This document shows positions 8,881 through 21,138 of a stretch of 22,297 nucleotides of DNA, piece by piece; within the stretch, counting starts at the first letter, position 1; each line of letters opens with the position of its first letter. The stretch spans positions 1 to 22,297 of the IMG/VR virus record IMGVR_UViG_3300036770_001801. One strand, given 5' to 3'. The DNA is from a virus. The position numbers and the translations under genes are program-made. The notes under the pieces were generated by a model that had not been told where the DNA came from, made no database searches, and worked only from the letters and a program-made list of their open reading frames with translations.

Positions 8881-10677
8881 TTACAGGGCGGTGATCGGTT
8901 CGACCGACGAGAAGCGGTCGATCTGCATCATGCAGCGGGTGGCTGCGTCACGGAACGCCGAGAACTCCATCGTCTCCATGACATCCTGATCGATGCCACC
9001 CGGAGCAACCGGGTCCGACGAAACCTTGAACGCCGGGATGGTGAAGTAATAGGTGTTCTTGTCCACGTCGATGATCGGGAACGCGAGGCTCACGGTCTCG
9101 TGGTTGATGAAGCGATCATACATCTCGCCATCGGCGAAATAGGCTTCGATCGAGCCCGTCAGGTTCAGACGGCCGGCAGCAATACCGACCGGGAACTTCG
9201 AGCCGACCGCCTGCTGGTTACGCAGGTTGCCTTCGATCGAAAACTGGATCGAGCGGATGGCCGTGGCCTGCTCGACGCCGTTGACGCTCAGCGAGCCGAC
9301 GTTCGCGGTTGCCGAGACGACTTCCGTTGCCGGGGCGTCGAGGACCGTGTAGTTGGCCGGGTTGTCGAGCTTCGAGATCGACGAACGCTTCGTCTCGCGG
9401 CCCTGCAAGGTCGAGGAGCCGGTGACAATCGATCCTGCCGTGACTTCCATCGAGACGCCGCCCGTGCGGAGGCCGTCAACGACGAAGTGCTGGTCCACGT
9501 CGTGGAAGCTCGTTTCGATGACTGCCGATTGCGGCGTGATCTGCGACGAGGTGCCCGGATTGCGAAGGATCGCACCCTTGATCGTCACATTGTCGCCGGC
9601 TGCGAGAGTCGGCAGATCGCGATCGACCGTGATGGCATCATCGGTCAGCGACACGATCGTGTAGAAGCCACCGATTTCGAGCCCACCGGTGAAATCCACA
9701 ACCGCGAGGGTTGCATCGTCTTCGGTCAGCACGCCGCCGTCCTTGAGCAGGTTCGTGATGGTCACGACACCGGCTGCATTCGAGGCGGTGAGTTTCAAAG
9801 TGCCCGCGACACGCAGCGCGTTGATAGCGGCGGCGAGGTTCGCACCAGTCTCGGTGTCATCGACACCCACATCGAAATCCGTATCGGCAACGAGCGTGAC
9901 CGTTTCGACGCCATCCGAGATGGTGACCGAATCGTCGGCGAGAACCGTGGCCGCCGTGATGGTGCCGGTTTCATAACCGACACCTTCGACGAAGATGCGC
10001 TGACCGGCGACAAGTTGGCCGGCTGCGACTGCTGCCGTGAACTGGCCCGGCGTCGCCGAGTCGATGACGCGCGGCGTATCGTTGAAGCGGATCGAGGTGT
10101 TCTTGAGGATGATCACGTCGTTCGCGTCGGCGACCGTCGTGTAGTTCGAGCCGGTTTCGGCAACGAGCGTTGTCGTTGTGATCGTGATGGTCGTGTTACC
10201 ACCCGTGAAGCCGAGCGCGCTGATCTGAACATAGTCGTTGTTCGCCGGGTTGATGAAGCCCGAAGTCTTGAGGCGACGACCGACCGTGAAATAGGTGCGG
10301 AAGTCACCGCCGCCGATCGTGATCGTGTTGTTCGCCGTGATCGAGACGTGCTTGCCACGGAACACGTCCCAGCCCATCGGGCGCGACCAGAGGCCCATCA
10401 GAGCGCGCTGGAGGTCCATGTCGATCGTGCCTGCCGCGAACTCCCAGTTGATTTCGCCGCCCGACGTTGCCGCCGTTTCGATGACCGATGAGACCATACG
10501 GTCGTCACGGATTTCGTCCGAGACTGTGGTTTCCTTGGTCGCCGTGATCGACGACGAGGTGAAGCGGCGAGCGCGGGTGACGCCGGTCTCCGGGGCCTGC
10601 CCCCAGCAGTCGTCGGCTTCTGCAAGCTCGCGCAGGGAGGCGCGGTTGGAATCGGCAAGAAGTGGATTGCAGGCCAT
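8881..10677 (-). CDS. Tail tube (major tail) protein with inserted module
   Basis: This protein of about 598 aa is in the tail tube position between the tail terminator and the chaperone. It begins MACNPLLADSNRASLRELAE and contains INWEFAAGTIDMDLQRALMG and a C-terminal FRDAATRCMMQIDRFSSVEP, as in phage tail tube proteins of this type. ATG 10677 is chosen because GAGAGGG lies 5 bases upstream; an in-frame ATG at 10722 lacks such a site. Residues about 238-332 (9682-9966) form an inserted beta-rich module that recurs in the head protein at 13744-14478. The length is well above a simple tube protein (150-250 aa), consistent with inserted surface domains. Promoter A lies just upstream. Confidence 0.85.
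   Translation of the reverse strand: MACNPLLADSNRASLRELAEADDCWGQAPETGVTRARRFTSSSITATKETTVSDEIRDDRMVSSVIETAATSGGEINWEFAAGTIDMDLQRALMGLWSRPMGWDVFRGKHVSITANNTITIGGGDFRTYFTVGRRLKTSGFINPANNDYVQISALGFTGGNTTITITTTTLVAETGSNYTTVADANDVIILKNTSIRFNDTPRVIDSATPGQFTAAVAAGQLVAGQRIFVEGVGYETGTITAATVLADDSVTISDGVETVTLVADTDFDVGVDDTETGANLAAAINALRVAGTLKLTASNAAGVVTITNLLKDGGVLTEDDATLAVVDFTGGLEIGGFYTIVSLTDDAITVDRDLPTLAAGDNVTIKGAILRNPGTSSQITPQSAVIETSFHDVDQHFVVDGLRTGGVSMEVTAGSIVTGSSTLQGRETKRSSISKLDNPANYTVLDAPATEVVSATANVGSLSVNGVEQATAIRSIQFSIEGNLRNQQAVGSKFPVGIAAGRLNLTGSIEAYFADGEMYDRFINHETVSLAFPIIDVDKNTYYFTIPAFKVSSDPVAPGGIDQDVMETMEFSAFRDAATRCMMQIDRFSSVEPITAL
9682..9966 (-). repeat. Inserted protein module, copy 2 (tail tube)
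   Basis: This segment encodes about 95 aa with VADTDFDVGVDDTETGANLA and AAAIN, matching the module in head protein 2. It interrupts a region reading IFVEGVGYETG before it and LEIGGFYTIVSL after it; these two parts would join into a plausible continuous domain without it. The module probably projects from the tube surface. Confidence 0.8.
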
Positions 10678-10749
10678 GGTTACCCTCTCAAAGGCTGGTG
10701 CGTGGAAGCTGGAAGCCCCCAAGCGCTGGAGGGCGGAAAATGATGCAGT

Positions 10750-13256: not shown

Positions 13257-13709
13257 TTAGCGGATGATCGCGCCGGCAATGAACGCCTTGAACGTGATGA
13301 TCGGCGTGGTGCCGGTCACATCAAGCTGGAGGCGCATGTGCGTCGCGTCGTCGAGCATCGCCTTCACGGTGTCGATGTCCACGAGGGCGGCCAACTGCTG
13401 GCCAGCCGCCGTTGCGGCCAGTCGGTGCGTGATGACCGTATCGCCGCCGAAGCCGGCTGCATCGCCGAACTGGAGCGAGAAGACATAGGTCTCGTCGCCG
13501 GTCGTCAGGTCGAGGTCTTCGACGTTGATGACGACTGCGAACGTCTGGTCGGCGAGTTCGCCTTCCGTGTTCCAATAGCCGTTCAGTTGGTCGAGGGCAT
13601 AAGCCGTCAGGTTGGTGTCGGCCGTCAGGGCCACACCGTCGTTTGCCGCGAGGGCGATCGACGGCGCTGCGTCATACATATACTTGAACTTGCTGTTCAT
13701 CTTCGCCAT
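13257..13709 (-). CDS. Head protein 1 (decoration candidate), paralog of the next gene upstream
   Basis: This 150-aa protein follows the capsid gene and its longer paralog. It begins MAKMNSKFKYMYDAAPSIAL and ends TFKAFIAGAIIR. It shares with the neighbour at 13744-14478 the N-terminus MNSKFKYM-DAAPS, ELADQTFA-V-NV, GDETY-F and a C-terminal I-GxI-R ending. TAGGAG nine bases upstream serves ATG 13709. Position and small beta-rich make-up suggest a head decoration or fibre protein (inference). Unlike its paralog it lacks the 95-aa inserted module. Confidence 0.75.
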   Translation of the reverse strand: MAKMNSKFKYMYDAAPSIALAANDGVALTADTNLTAYALDQLNGYWNTEGELADQTFAVVINVEDLDLTTGDETYVFSLQFGDAAGFGGDTVITHRLAATAAGQQLAALVDIDTVKAMLDDATHMRLQLDVTGTTPIITFKAFIAGAIIR

Positions 13710-13743: not shown

Positions 13744-14478
13744 TTACCGGAGGATGCGGCCAGCAATCCACGAGTAAAGGGTGATCGACGGAGCGACGCC
13801 CGCCAGCGTCCCGACCAGACGAATGGCCGCCGTGTCGCTCTTCATGGCAATTGCCGTGTCGAGATCGACCGGGAAGACATATTGTCCAACACGGGAGATG
13901 TTGAGGAACCCCAACACCGCGTTCGAGCCAAAGCCGACCGGGCCGACTTGGACAGCGAAATTGTAGGTCTCATCACCACCGGTGAAATCGACCGTATCGA
14001 TGGTCGTGTCGGCGTCCGTAAGGGCCGCGTCCGGGTGATTATCGACGTTGGTGACAGTGACGACATCGGCCGCCGCGACAGCGGTCAGGTTGAGATCGCC
14101 TGCGTCGAAAAGATCGTTGATCGCTGCTGCCAGATTTTCGGCCGTCTCGTTGTCGTCCGCACCGACATCGAAGTCGGTATCGGCCGTCAGCGTGACCGGC
14201 GTGTTGACACCATCGTCGAGGGTCACAGCATCGGTGGCAACAACCGTATTGAGCGTGAAAGTGCCCGTGCTGGGCGAGGTTTCGATGTCGGTCACATTGA
14301 CGACGAGAGCGAATGTCTGATCCGCGAGTTCGTCCGAGGTCCAGTGACCTTCAAGCTTGTCAAGCGCGACAGCGGCGCTGTTAAACGAGGCAACCTGTGG
14401 GGTGCCGTTGCGTTCGATGAGACGCACGCTCGGAGCGGCGTCGAACATGTATTTGAACTTGGAGTTCATCTTGGCCAG
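13744..14478 (-). CDS. Head protein 2 (decoration candidate) with inserted module; probable CTG start
   Basis: This is a paralog of the gene at 13257-13709. Between shared flanks (VVNV... and GDETYNF) it carries about 96 extra residues (13975-14262) that are closely similar to a module in the tail tube protein. The first ATG (14469) lacks a nearby ribosome-binding site. Nine bases earlier CTG GCC AAG gives L-A-K-M-N-S-K-F-K-Y, exactly parallel to M-A-K-M-N-S-K-F-K-Y in the paralog, and GGAG lies 8 bases before the CTG. I therefore place the start at CTG 14478 (244 aa). A head surface role is inferred from position after the major capsid gene. Confidence 0.75.
   Translation of the reverse strand: MAKMNSKFKYMFDAAPSVRLIERNGTPQVASFNSAAVALDKLEGHWTSDELADQTFALVVNVTDIETSPSTGTFTLNTVVATDAVTLDDGVNTPVTLTADTDFDVGADDNETAENLAAAINDLFDAGDLNLTAVAAADVVTVTNVDNHPDAALTDADTTIDTVDFTGGDETYNFAVQVGPVGFGSNAVLGFLNISRVGQYVFPVDLDTAIAMKSDTAAIRLVGTLAGVAPSITLYSWIAGRILR
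13975..14262 (-). repeat. Inserted protein module, copy 1 (head protein 2)
   Basis: This segment encodes about 96 aa with the signature TADTDFDVGADDNETAENLA. It corresponds to the segment at 9682-9966 in the tail tube gene, with clear similarity at both protein and DNA level. Both copies start at T-G-T-x-T and end in VDFTGG. Similar Asp/Asn/Ala-rich beta modules with an ETAxNLAAAIN core recur in many phage surface proteins. Confidence 0.8.
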
Positions 14479-16679: not shown

Positions 16680-16847
16680 TTACCGACAACGTGGTCTCCG
16701 GACCTTTCTCCGGGCGGTTGCCAGTTCTTGTTGAATGACCTTCTCGATGTCTTCGGAGTCCTCTCCAAACATCGGAAGGTCATCCCCTTCCCACAATGAA
16801 TCGTATTGACTACGTTTTAGATAAACTTCGTAGTCGGTGTCGGACAT
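16680..16847 (-). CDS. Small protein coupled to the portal gene, function unknown
   Basis: A 55-aa frame starts at ATG 16847, overlapping the portal stop by one base (TAATG), so it is probably translated by re-initiation. It begins MSDTDYEVYLKRSQYDSLWE, has an acidic middle (GDDLPMFGEDSEDIE) and a basic C-terminus (ARRKVRRPRCR). It ends just before promoter B. The start overlap is the same arrangement used by several true gene pairs in this window, which supports it. I do not recognise a family. Confidence 0.65.
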   Translation of the reverse strand: MSDTDYEVYLKRSQYDSLWEGDDLPMFGEDSEDIEKVIQQELATARRKVRRPRCR

Positions 16848-18622
16848 TACTGGCCTCCGCCTCCACTCTGCGGCGGGTTATCCCGCTGCTGGGCCTGACG
16901 GGCGGCCTGTGGAACGGCCGGAATTTTCGGAGCTTCCTTGGCGACCTTCTCCGACGACTTTCGATCCTTCTCGTTTTCGAGAGCGTCGGCTTCGTTCTGG
17001 GTGTCCTGCAATTCCTGCTCGCCTTCGATTTCCACGTCGGCGAGATCGCGCTGGAGTTCGTCGTTGCGCTGGGTCTTGGCGTCCGGGAACCCATCCTGCC
17101 GGCTCTCGAAGTCCGGGTTGTTCGGGAACTGCTTGGCGTCTTCCAGCATCTTCGTGAACATTTCCAGCGTGACGTATTCCGGGATCACGTCCGCCTTGAG
17201 GAAATATTCGTAGATGATTTCGATCGGCAGCAGCCCTGCCTCATACATCATGGTGATGGCGCGGAACTCGCGTGCTGCGGCCTGATCGAGGAGGAAGTCC
17301 TGATTGACGCGGAACTCCAAATTGTCGTTCGGCTGCTCATTCTCCCATTCCGAGAGGATGATCATCAGGTCGGTGAAGTTCTCGTTGATGACGGTCGTGA
17401 CGTTGAGAAGCAGCGATTGCTCGTTGCGGTCCTTGATCTTGACCTGATTGTCCGACTGGCCTGCCGTCTTCGAGTCACCGAGGAGGCGACCACCAAGTGA
17501 TGCGACCTGAGTTTCCTTGGCCTCCAACGCCTTGAAGATATTATTCAGGCCTTGGCCGTTATACTCAAGGATGGATGCTTTCTCGCCAGTTCCGATTTCC
17601 CAGACGACGGACGGGCCGATGTGGTAGGTATCATCCTCCTGCCCACCCGACACGGTGTAAACCGGGTTGGCGGTGTAAAACAGGCCATGTTCGAGCGCCG
17701 CATAGGTCTTATAGTGCGACAGGTTCAGGGTGAGGATGTCGAGGACCGGGGGCTTCTCGACTTCCGACAGATTGGTCGTTGCGTTGAAGAAGCGGAACGG
17801 GATGCGATCCATCGGGACACCGAACACCATCGGCGTCGTGACCACGGGCTCTTCCGTCAGGTCGGCGTCCTCGCCATCACGAGTGTAGAACTCTTGCTGA
17901 TAGACGACGCGCTCATATTCCTCGCTATAGACGAGGCGCAGGATGCGATAACTGATAAAGAGCTTGCCGTAGGCCGCGTTCGGCACCGCTTTGGTGCCCT
18001 CGAACGTATACGGTCGGCGATCGGGCTTGAACTCGCGGAGCAGGATATACTCATACTCATCGCGACCATCGATTTCGGTCGTCGCCCAGTCAAGCAGGTT
18101 CTCGCAGGTGTAACCCGCCAGATAGGGCTTGCTGGTGCCAAAGTCAGACGCCGACTTATCGACGAGGATGCCGTAGCGTCCCACCGAAAGCATTTCCTGC
18201 GCCACGACCTTGGTGAAGATGTTGAGGGACAGTCCGTCCTTGCTGACGCGCTTGGTCAGGCTCTTGAGCTTGTCGCCGGCATTGAGCAGGCGCGGGTCAC
18301 GCCGAAAGATCGCACCGGTGAGGCCGGTGACGGTTCGGTAGACCATGTTGTAGAAAACGGCGCGATCGAGGTAGGCCGAATATTGCTCATCGTCCATGCC
18401 GTCCGGCATCGGAAGATAGTTCGTGCCCTGTGCTTTGATCGCGACTTCGCCGATCATGGCGTGACGGATGGCGGCCCAGATCAGTCGCCAGTTGTTGTAA
18501 TCCCAGTTGGTATAGGCCGGCGCGCGTTCCATCAACTCCTGCTTCGAGCGGATCGCGGCGTAGTGGGCCTGTTTCTGGTGGAAGCGCTTGACTTCCCCCT
18601 TCGTGGGAGGGGTGTGACTCAC
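16847..18622 (-). CDS. Portal protein (DUF4055-type)
   Basis: This protein of about 591 aa forms the dodecameric ring at the head vertex through which DNA passes. It resembles DUF4055 portal proteins: NNWRLIWAAIRHAMIGEVAIKA near the N-terminus, then LPMPDG, AVFYNMVYRTVTGLTGAIFRRD and IPFRFFNATTNLS. The C-terminus is charged and then Gly/Gln-rich, typical of flexible portal tails. GTG 18622 is chosen because an upstream GTG (18664) lies in a terminator-like hairpin; a modest GGAAAA precedes 18622. The first ATG would cut into the conserved region. It sits below promoter C and a long leader. Confidence 0.87.
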   Translation of the reverse strand: MSHTPPTKGEVKRFHQKQAHYAAIRSKQELMERAPAYTNWDYNNWRLIWAAIRHAMIGEVAIKAQGTNYLPMPDGMDDEQYSAYLDRAVFYNMVYRTVTGLTGAIFRRDPRLLNAGDKLKSLTKRVSKDGLSLNIFTKVVAQEMLSVGRYGILVDKSASDFGTSKPYLAGYTCENLLDWATTEIDGRDEYEYILLREFKPDRRPYTFEGTKAVPNAAYGKLFISYRILRLVYSEEYERVVYQQEFYTRDGEDADLTEEPVVTTPMVFGVPMDRIPFRFFNATTNLSEVEKPPVLDILTLNLSHYKTYAALEHGLFYTANPVYTVSGGQEDDTYHIGPSVVWEIGTGEKASILEYNGQGLNNIFKALEAKETQVASLGGRLLGDSKTAGQSDNQVKIKDRNEQSLLLNVTTVINENFTDLMIILSEWENEQPNDNLEFRVNQDFLLDQAAAREFRAITMMYEAGLLPIEIIYEYFLKADVIPEYVTLEMFTKMLEDAKQFPNNPDFESRQDGFPDAKTQRNDELQRDLADVEIEGEQELQDTQNEADALENEKDRKSSEKVAKEAPKIPAVPQAARQAQQRDNPPQSGGGGQ

Positions 18623-18633
18623 GGGGTTTTCCG

Positions 18634-18670
18634 AAAAAGGACCCGGTGGCGCGGAAGCAACCACCGGGTC
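18634..18670 (-). terminator. Terminator-like hairpin at the end of the portal leader
   Basis: A perfect 10-bp stem pairs GACCCGGTGG with CCACCGGGTC (18640-18649 and 18661-18670). On the minus strand it is followed by CTTTTT. It lies 12 bases before the chosen portal start codon and downstream of promoter C, so transcripts from that promoter meet it before reaching the portal gene. Confidence 0.75.
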
Positions 18671-19071: not shown

Positions 19072-19100
19072 AATCTAACACAGGTTCTTGATTTTGTCAA
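19072..19100 (-). promoter_or_regulatory. Promoter C upstream of the portal leader
   Basis: The minus strand has -35 TTGACA (19095-19100), a 17-base spacer and -10 TAGATT (19072-19077). As in A and B the -35 is preceded by GC, giving GCTTGACA, but the rest of the upstream repeat element is not clearly conserved. It lies about 37 bases after the stop of the spike-base-like gene. Confidence 0.65.
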
Positions 19101-19136: not shown

Positions 19137-19448
19137 TCAGGTCTTCACTTCATCACCTGTTTCGATGTCGGTGTAGCCGGCGATGATGAGTCCCCCGGTG
19201 GTGCCCGTCTCGTAGACGCGCTTGATGCGGAGCGGTTCGATCCAGACCGACTGCGGCGGAATGTCCAAGGTGATCTCATTGTCGAACATGGTCTTGACCT
19301 TGACCTCACCCCAACTATCCGAGGGATTGGCGATCCGCAGGGCTTTACAGCCCCACGCCATGTCGGTGAAATCGTCCAGCGAGATCAAAACGAGATTGTT
19401 GGCCGGGTCAGCGACGCCCGGCGTGTCTTTGCTATACGGATCAGCCAT
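19137..19448 (-). CDS. Small beta-rich protein resembling GTA spike-base protein
   Basis: This 103-aa protein has an N-terminal segment with small residues followed by CKALRIANPSDSWGEVKVKT and LRIKRVYETGTTGGLIIAGY. The layout (an ALRV-like strand, a valine-rich middle and a PLRIKRV-x-x-TGTT-x-x-x-I ending) resembles the small spike-base proteins of gene transfer agents that sit on head vertices. Its ATG overlaps the end of the desaturase gene by eight bases, with GGA about 11 bases upstream. The assignment is tentative because the similarity is short; another small virion protein is possible. Confidence 0.5.
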   Translation of the reverse strand: MADPYSKDTPGVADPANNLVLISLDDFTDMAWGCKALRIANPSDSWGEVKVKTMFDNEITLDIPPQSVWIEPLRIKRVYETGTTGGLIIAGYTDIETGDEVKT

Positions 19449-19998
19449 TCTCTTGGTCCTTTATCTTGAAGAAGTGTTCCAGTCGGTTCCAGACATCGAG
19501 ATGTTCGAGGACCGGGTTGCACCAGTCCGTCAGCACGCAGTAGTTCTTGTTCTGCGGCGGCAGGTGATGCTTGGCGTGACCGGGCACCGACTGGATGATC
19601 CCGATCTGCTGAAAAACGGAAAGCCACCCGGCAAACCGCCCCGGCTTGTGGGTCTTTGATCCACCCGGCCGTTTGTGTGCGAGGTAATGCACCTCATTCT
19701 GAAACGCGCCGCCGAGAAACGCGAAGAGGAGGACGGTCGAGAAACCGAAAACGGAGAGCCAGATGATGGCTATCACCGTTGCCGCAAGAAACGCTGTCGA
19801 GTTGCGACTGAGGAAGCCCTGCTCGGTGAATGCCATGGGCGCGACATGATGATGGCGGTTGGGCTCGAAGACGTGACGCTCCAGCCAAGCCCAGCGCGGC
19901 CGGCCGATGCGGTCCTCCCACCAATGGACGAGGCCACCGAGAAGATCGGCGAGCAGCCAACCGACGAGGGCGGCTCCGAGGAACGCGAAAATCGAGAT
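19441..19998 (-). CDS. CarF/TMEM189/FAD4-family membrane lipid desaturase, non-canonical start
   Basis: Reading in one frame across the window gives a protein of about 185 aa with the pattern of the Lipid_desat family (CarF and TMEM189 plasmanylethanolamine desaturases, plant FAD4): LLGGLVHWWED, then NRHHHVAPMAF, then HYLAHK, then PGHAKHHLPPQNKNYCVLTD and WCNPVLEHLDVWNRLE. The His residues (about 25, 49-51, 104, 108, 141, 144, 145) would bind a di-iron centre. Two hydrophobic regions (1-24 and about 67-99) fit membrane segments. The first ATG (19836) would lose the HHH motif; between the in-frame stop at 20017-20019 and that ATG there is no ATG, GTG or TTG. ATC 19998 has GAAGG 8 bases upstream and is my best start. 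Expected to act on membrane lipids; the substrate is unknown. Confidence 0.8.
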   Translation of the reverse strand: MSIFAFLGAALVGWLLADLLGGLVHWWEDRIGRPRWAWLERHVFEPNRHHHVAPMAFTEQGFLSRNSTAFLAATVIAIIWLSVFGFSTVLLFAFLGGAFQNEVHYLAHKRPGGSKTHKPGRFAGWLSVFQQIGIIQSVPGHAKHHLPPQNKNYCVLTDWCNPVLEHLDVWNRLEHFFKIKDQENG

Positions 19999-20121
19999 GG
20001 CTACTGCCTTCGTTGGTTATTGACACTGACCGCGAATCACGGCATACAGTGCGGACCGCTCTGCCGAGGACTTCTGGGTCGCACCAGTCCTCGCAACCCT
20101 GCCGACTTATCATCGGCGACG

Positions 20122-20159
20122 AAAAGGGATGGGTCCCTCCACTGGAGCCCATCCCTTTT
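20122..20159. terminator. Bidirectional intrinsic terminator
   Basis: A perfect 12-bp stem pairs AAAAGGGATGGG (20122-20133) with CCCATCCCTTTT (20148-20159). T-runs flank it on both strands. On the minus strand it ends PhoH transcription and separates that gene from the desaturase gene. Confidence 0.88.
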
Positions 20160-20313: not shown

Positions 20314-21138
20314 TCACGCGGCCATTTCCACATCGTCATACAGGTCCAGCACCTCCTCGATCACCGGGTGACGCACCACGTCGTCCCGGCCGAGGTTCAC
20401 GATGCCGATACGCTCCCATCGCTGGTTGATCGGAGCATAAGCTGCGTCTTCCCTACCTTGGGTGATGAACCCCGGCAATTCACCCTGCTGGGCGGCGCGG
20501 TCGCGGAGTCGGCGAGTGATGTCGGCGAGGCCGCTTTCGGTGCCAAGCTCGCGGCGATCGAACTGTTCCGTGTCGCCTGTGATGATCATGCGGCTGTTCT
20601 CCCCGATGCGGGTCATCAGCATCTTCATCTGCTCGGGCGTCGCGTTCTGCATCTCGTCGGCGATGATCAGCGCGTTCTTGAACGTGCGGCCACGCATATA
20701 GGCGAGCGGCGCGATCTCGATCTCCTCGGACTGGATCATGCGCTGCACCTCGTGCGCCGAATAGGCTTCCATGAACACGTCGATGATCGGCCGGGTCCAC
20801 GGGGCCATCTTCTCGGTCAGTGAGCCCGGAAGGTATCCGAGATCGTCACCGGTGGCGACATTCGGGCGGGTGATCACGATCTTGGTGATGTCACCTCGCT
20901 GGAATTTCTCGATTGCGTCGCGGACGGCCATATAGGTCTTGCCGGTGCCGGCCGGGCCTACGGCGAAGAGAATGTCATGTCGTTGGCCGCGAAGTTTCTT
21001 GAGGTAGGCTTTCTGGTTGTTGGTGTTTGCCTTGAGAGGCGCAAGCGGCTTGATCTTGTTCTCAACGAGGGACATTCGATCCTCAGTCTGGGGATATTTG
21101 GAGGGGAAAAATTTCTGCTTGGTTGCAGCGCGGGCCAT
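20314..21138 (-). CDS. phoH: PhoH-like ATPase
   Basis: This 274-aa protein carries a Walker A motif GPAGTGKT (residues 61-68) and a Walker B motif IIADEMQN (about 158-165), with the PhoH-specific context ITRPNVATGDDLGYLPGSLTEKM and ITGDTEQFD. PhoH-like ATPases/RNA helicase-like proteins are common in phages; proposed roles are in RNA metabolism or phosphate stress, but the phage function is unsettled. The length is normal for the core domain. The first ATG (21138) gives MARAATKQKF; no strong ribosome-binding site precedes it, and ATG at residue 22 is an alternative. It ends before a strong bidirectional terminator. Confidence 0.93.
   Translation of the reverse strand: MARAATKQKFFPSKYPQTEDRMSLVENKIKPLAPLKANTNNQKAYLKKLRGQRHDILFAVGPAGTGKTYMAVRDAIEKFQRGDITKIVITRPNVATGDDLGYLPGSLTEKMAPWTRPIIDVFMEAYSAHEVQRMIQSEEIEIAPLAYMRGRTFKNALIIADEMQNATPEQMKMLMTRIGENSRMIITGDTEQFDRRELGTESGLADITRRLRDRAAQQGELPGFITQGREDAAYAPINQRWERIGIVNLGRDDVVRHPVIEEVLDLYDDVEMAA

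Follow-up and report, generated by a model that had tools for sequence, protein, structure and literature searches.

The analysed stretch of viral DNA (22,297 nucleotides, referred to here as the window) encodes a small integral-membrane enzyme of the Lipid_desat family (PF10520), which belongs to a clade dedicated to phages. The window virus infects sphingomonad-type bacteria. We propose that the protein is a phage membrane-lipid desaturase which would act late in infection and remodel the host envelope for efficient lysis, a reading to which we give a probability of about one half. A lysis purpose is the likeliest because close relatives are placed directly behind Rz1-type spanin genes and are translationally coupled to them.

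Family, fold and likely chemistry of the window protein

The initial annotation had recognised a frame at 19441-19998 carrying the motifs VHWWED, HHHVAP, HYLAHK, HAKHHLPP and NYC...NP, and all five are present as written, on the minus strand (Table 1). The plus strand reading of the same interval contains an internal stop. Its assignment of the frame to Lipid_desat also held in a search against Pfam, where the protein matched PF10520 far beyond chance (E-value 2.7e-31; 109.4 bits against a cut-off of 26.4). The same family was matched by all 45 aligned relatives, none of which (0/45) matched any PHROG family.

Table 1. Features of the window discussed in the text.
Feature	Position	Strand	Basis or remark
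Portal protein	16847..18664	-	phrog_145, E-value 5.5e-103
Promoter-like TTGACA-17-TAGATT	19072..19100	-	Conserved before the portal gene of six related phages
Spike base protein, RCAP_Rcc01079 family	19137..19448	-	NF048002, 37.6 bits (cut-off 28); phrog_12296
Lipid_desat (PF10520) gene	19441..19998	-	ATC read as start (19998-19996); open frame extends to 20016
NYCVLTDWCNP	19513..19545	-	Cys160 invariant; Asn167-Pro168 conserved
Motif 4, HAKHHLPP	19555..19578	-	His147, His150, His151 (H215, H218, H219 of mouse PEDS1)
Motif 3, HYLAH (HYLAHK from 19689)	19675..19689	-	His110, His114 (H187, H191 of mouse PEDS1)
Motif 2, HHHVAP	19837..19854	-	His56, His57 (H121, H122 of mouse PEDS1)
Asn53, clade signature	19858..19860	-	At the place of PEDS1/FAD4 F118; Asn in 32/34 viral and 10/10 prophage rows
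Motif 1, VHWWED	19912..19929	-	His31 (H96 of mouse PEDS1), Asp35 (D100, essential)
Start context of the desaturase	19996..20011	-	GAAGG (20011-20007), 8 nt before ATC (19998-19996); from sequence
Perfect 12-bp inverted repeat, AAAAGGGATGGG...CCCATCCCTTTT	20122..20159	.	14-nt loop, between phoH and desaturase; from sequence
phoH	20314..21138	-	PF02562, 240.7 bits

In mouse PEDS1, eight histidines and D100 are essential and the roles of individual residues have been described (PMC8960569). All eight catalytic histidines and the essential aspartate have counterparts in the window protein. Twelve columns (G28, H31, W32, D35, H56, H57, H110, H114, H147, H150, H151 and C160) are invariant across the alignment of 45 diverse relatives, nearly all of which are phage or prophage sequences. 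An AlphaFold2 prediction based on this alignment yielded a helical model (pLDDT 91.3, pTM 0.86) whose best match among solved structures was the di-metal hydroxylase Scs7p (Z 7.8 over 151 residues), with unrelated entries reaching a Z of 2.9 or less. We take the fold match as supportive but not decisive, given that Foldseek alone gave a poor E-value for Scs7p and that Z values in the middle range are often seen. In a viral structure library the top match of the model was a giant-virus protein annotated as Lipid_desat. Searching solved structures by sequence returned chance hits only. We regard the Lipid_desat family and fold of the protein as well supported, and it probably binds iron as a di-iron enzyme.

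The initial annotation had described the gene as CarF/TMEM189/FAD4-type, and the CarF/TMEM189 part of this label, a plasmanylethanolamine desaturase producing plasmalogens, does not stand. The window protein shares with CarF/TMEM189 (PEDS1) the Pfam family, the eight-histidine arrangement and the counterpart of Asp100, but the PEDS1-specific histidine (mouse H131) is a glutamine, with histidine found at this position in 0/34 viral and 0/10 prophage sequences, and Asn53 takes the place of F118, a residue that PEDS1 and FAD4 both conserve. The NCBIfam equivalog for CarF (NF045946) scores the protein at 59.5 bits against a cut-off of 500. In addition, alphaproteobacterial homologues fail to replace CarF in Myxococcus, as reviewed in PMC9131029, and plasmalogen synthesis by the window enzyme is very improbable. 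The plant enzyme FAD4, which desaturates the sn-2 acyl chain of phosphatidylglycerol, has the same Pfam family and eight-histidine set and likewise lacks H131, but going by its described residues it has the phenylalanine of PEDS1 where the window protein has Asn53. A lipid hydroxylase, in place of a desaturase, would agree with the best solved fold and with the match of 33 of the 45 relatives to FA_hydroxylase at an E-value of 1e-3 or better. However, the window protein scores only 18.2 bits against FA_hydroxylase (PF04116), under the curated cut-off of 31, whereas its Lipid_desat score is four times the respective cut-off. Hydroxylation is, on this comparison, an improbable reaction for the protein. 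The fatty acid 2-hydroxylase Scs7p (PDB 4zr0, 4zr1) is 13% identical to it and belongs to another Pfam family.

The classical phage desaturases (those of cyanophages, and vFAD) are of the PF00487 or stearoyl-CoA type, and the window protein had no match to PF00487 at an E-value of 0.1. The two kinds are alike in being phage-borne and in their proposed action, the classical ones (cyanophage and Arctic brine vFAD) having been put forward as desaturases of host lipids (PMC7300359, PMC8228385). Separately, we observed that two Planctomycetota Lipid_desat proteins (L210 and L215 in our locus numbering) appear to retain the equivalents of both F118 and H131; the papers that we consulted do not list this group among those with such a PEDS1-like signature.

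The desaturase gene and its surroundings in the window

The Lipid_desat frame spans 191 codons stop-to-stop, running open from 20016 down to its stop codon at 19441, and no ATG, GTG or TTG lies in the stretch from the preceding TAA to the first histidine motif. Judged from the sequence, the ATC at 19998-19996 is a plausible start and would be the sole one. Homologues start near the aligned place with ATG (Erythrobacter phage vB_EliS-L02, hereafter L02) or GTG (L068). The length of about 185 amino acids given by the initial annotation depends on an ATC start, and the missing usual start codon had been overlooked; the length, which it called short against the cellular enzymes, is normal for the viral clade and does not reflect truncation. 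The window copy may use a rare start, may carry a one-base assembly error or may have lost its start recently, and with no ATG, GTG or TTG before the first histidine motif its expression here is uncertain. A dying gene, in which ATG became ATC and no protein is made, would account for the missing start codon and for the ATG and GTG of the two homologues. We consider this quite unlikely, as all 12 family-invariant residues are intact, no stop interrupts the frame, GAAGG is correctly spaced before the ATC, and an assembly error in a single base is equally possible.

The placement of the gene between phoH and the portal gene, and its eight-base overlap with a small virion gene (the spike base gene, into which the desaturase stop extends), were described correctly by the initial annotation. 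On the phoH side, the inverted repeat at 20122..20159 is probably a bidirectional terminator, as predicted from the sequence. On the portal side, co-transcription of the desaturase and portal genes is not established because a promoter-like site, conserved in six of six related phages, lies between them. Related phages that lack the desaturase (XM05, Lacusarx and RXM) carry other cargo in the phoH-portal slot, and this cargo differs from phage to phage.

The region 19100-18665 on the minus strand corresponds to a non-coding leader of 200-420 nt that precedes the portal gene in six sphingomonad Cbk-like phages. These leaders share a TTGACA-(16-18)-TAnnnT element and the conserved blocks GTGGTAGG... 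and CCTGTCTCCTCC; this could be a leader RNA, and there was no match in Rfam. Elsewhere in the window, two tandem paralogues follow the major capsid gene (13257-13709 and 13744-14469, minus strand). The longer one has an inserted domain of about 100 amino acids that is 60% identical to a domain in a putative tail tube protein (8881-10722, minus strand), so that one domain is common to head-side and tail proteins in the window.

A phage clade and its relatives in sphingomonad prophages

Relatives of the window protein were present in only two of 50,697 phage records, L02 and an uncultured 595-kb phage, and three further queries against these records returned the same two. L02 is an isolated phage whose protein (UIS25202.1) is 54% identical to that of the window and is likewise encoded in the phoH-portal slot. 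It is annotated as a hypothetical protein and the L02 paper does not mention a desaturase. Compared with the window, L02 has an ATG start and an additional upstream gene for a 180-aa membrane-protein-like product. This gene of about 180 aa is conserved after phoH in L02 and L068 (L002:1798-2340 and L068:7328-7858, respectively), is absent from the window, and in L02 overlaps the start of the desaturase gene by four bases.

Scans of IMG/VR with a single protein or with two sequences found no relatives. DNA patterns based on motif spacing did find them, recovering at least 89 loci with an in-frame Lipid_desat-type frame, including the L02 record; at least about 80 of these came from one motif-spacing scan. 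A match to a terminase model was found in 10 of the 18 viral records examined, although several of these matches are weak. No relative of the window desaturase was found in plasmid records. The median dN/dS was 0.13 over 306 pairs from 65 viral genes within related clusters (the pairs are not independent), and purifying selection acts on the relatives in the phage clade.

In a maximum-likelihood tree, the window protein grouped with those of L068 and L02 (support 100/99). These three fall within a phage and prophage clade of 13 sequences (98/93), apart from the chromosomal Lipid_desat type of sphingomonads. The phage clade conserves the eight histidines and the essential aspartate of PF10520, has the signature PNxxHH with a near-invariant Asn53, and differs from the rest of the family in its short proteins (about 175-190 aa) and in having asparagine for the phenylalanine of PEDS1 and FAD4. 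Searches of the open-access literature, where absence is not proof, turned up neither a description of PF10520 in phages nor one of a desaturase linked to lysis, and two myxophage papers merely cite the CarF article. Phage desaturases and PF10520 are each known already, but the distinct phage clade and its lysis linkage did not appear in these sources.

The best 10 bacterial matches were all from Sphingomonadales and all were located among prophage genes. Each of these ten prophage-bearing genomes has a single Lipid_desat gene, which is of the phage type. Among 299 Sphingomonadaceae genomes, the phage type occurs in three and a different, longer chromosomal type in 15, and a profile search of 398 Sphingomonadales genomes found three. 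In the tree, this chromosomal type forms a clade separate from the phage type. The chromosomal subfamily (HMYMD...FKNHHPRPDALGRR; L223-L237 and L248), seen in 15 of the 299 Sphingomonadaceae genomes, is adjoined by a PlsC-like acyltransferase frame in L248.

Linkage to lysis genes and possible roles

Three viral contigs (L185, L162 and L015) carry, in order, a holin, an amidase or lysozyme, an Rz-like frame, an Rz1-like lipoprotein and the desaturase; for L185 and L162, a scan confirmed the holin (phrog_2359) and the endolysin. In the P2-like prophages L197, L198 and L203, Rz/Rz1-like frames lie directly before the desaturase and tail genes after it. The spanin assignment in these prophages was made from gene order and sequence pattern, and a phage lysozyme was confirmed in L198 and L203. 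The stop of the Rz1-like gene overlaps the desaturase start by 4 nt (ATGA or GTGA) in L197, L198, L203, L162 and L015. An Rz-like spanin gene is located directly downstream of the desaturase in L087. The PHROG matches of the Rz1-like genes are weak (E-values of 0.0019 to 0.033 in L162, L199 and L015).

Not every relative is lysis-linked, and several occupy other late-region slots. The window, L02 and L068 have the desaturase in the phoH-portal slot. In L200, L202, L205 and L206 the desaturase lies among morphogenesis genes, in L252 between terminase and portal, and in L199, L201 and L204 close to small TM proteins and to genes resembling Mu gp27. The small TM proteins beside the gene in the Mu-like prophages L199 and L204 look holin-like but were unconfirmed by PHROGs, and we leave them out of the lysis genes. 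In the large group of freshwater viruses, the desaturase is preceded by a gene of a TM/coiled-coil or TM/thioredoxin-like type with no firm lysis match, and we therefore claim lysis linkage for the sphingomonad-type relatives only.

Two further neighbours were seen among the viral loci. In L114, L121, L051 and L072, the desaturase is preceded by a gene for a thioredoxin-like protein that is anchored in the membrane and has motifs of the CPPC or CAPC type; this protein may be a redox partner of the desaturase. In L056 (2333-3726), the viral desaturase is directly followed by a patatin-like phospholipase-like frame (from sequence, with no PHROG match).

We infer that the window copy is translated and that this membrane enzyme, probably di-iron, would draw electrons from a host donor and, in the late phase of infection, desaturate a lipid of the host membrane in one of its acyl or alkyl chains. 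The remodelled envelope would then favour efficient lysis, through holin pore formation or spanin-driven membrane fusion. The weakest steps are the substrate, the lysis purpose and the expression of the window copy. The suggestion of the initial annotation that the gene is expressed late and affects lysis gains indirect support from the relatives located behind spanin genes, but any co-transcription with the portal gene is put in question by the promoter-like site of the latter. That site, the slots outside lysis regions, the weak PHROG matches of the Rz1-like genes, the pattern-based spanin assignment in the P2-like prophages and the missing canonical start in the window all count against this reading. 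More tentatively, the widespread phage lipid desaturase family as a whole could be an accessory lysis protein of phages of diderm hosts, made with or just after the spanins, in which case altered unsaturation of membrane lipids would allow the inner and outer membranes to rupture or fuse on schedule.

Cargo genes are, moreover, often inserted into lysis cassettes. The main rival explanation is accordingly that the desaturase is general auxiliary metabolic cargo, acting on host phospholipids for fluidity or lipid supply, and that its adjacency to spanin genes marks a favoured insertion slot with no specific part in lysis. The several unrelated late-region slots fit such a role, as does the phoH-portal slot with its phage-by-phage cargo, and phage desaturases of the classical family have been interpreted in this way (cited in PMC8228385 and PMC7300359). 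The 4-nt coupling to an Rz1-like gene is repeated across different phages and is more specific than a random slot would produce, and we find the cargo explanation doubtful. The enzyme might instead serve superinfection exclusion, with an outer-membrane or surface lipid altered in a way that blocks binding or injection by further phages. Prophage membrane enzymes are in principle capable of this and many of the copies are in prophages; these copies, however, sit within late morphogenesis or lysis operons and not as independent genes expressed in lysogeny, PADLOC gave no match for the window protein, and exclusion seems a remote prospect.

Phage desaturases have so far been of the classical type and explained as cargo that regulates fluidity. 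Lipid_desat is a different enzyme family, familiar from the chemistry of plasmalogens and of phosphatidylglycerol in plants. It has a separate phage clade that is absent from PHROGs, and in L02, its one carrier among isolated phages, the protein is labelled hypothetical. That the closest members are often adjacent to lysis genes points to chemical remodelling of host membranes by some phages at a late stage of infection. If the accessory lysis role is true, an enzymatic lipid-modifying step would join the holin-endolysin-spanin scheme. With the repeated spanin-type coupling, it becomes possible to ask directly, using a phage that can be cultured and prophages that have been induced, whether phages edit host lipids to control lysis.
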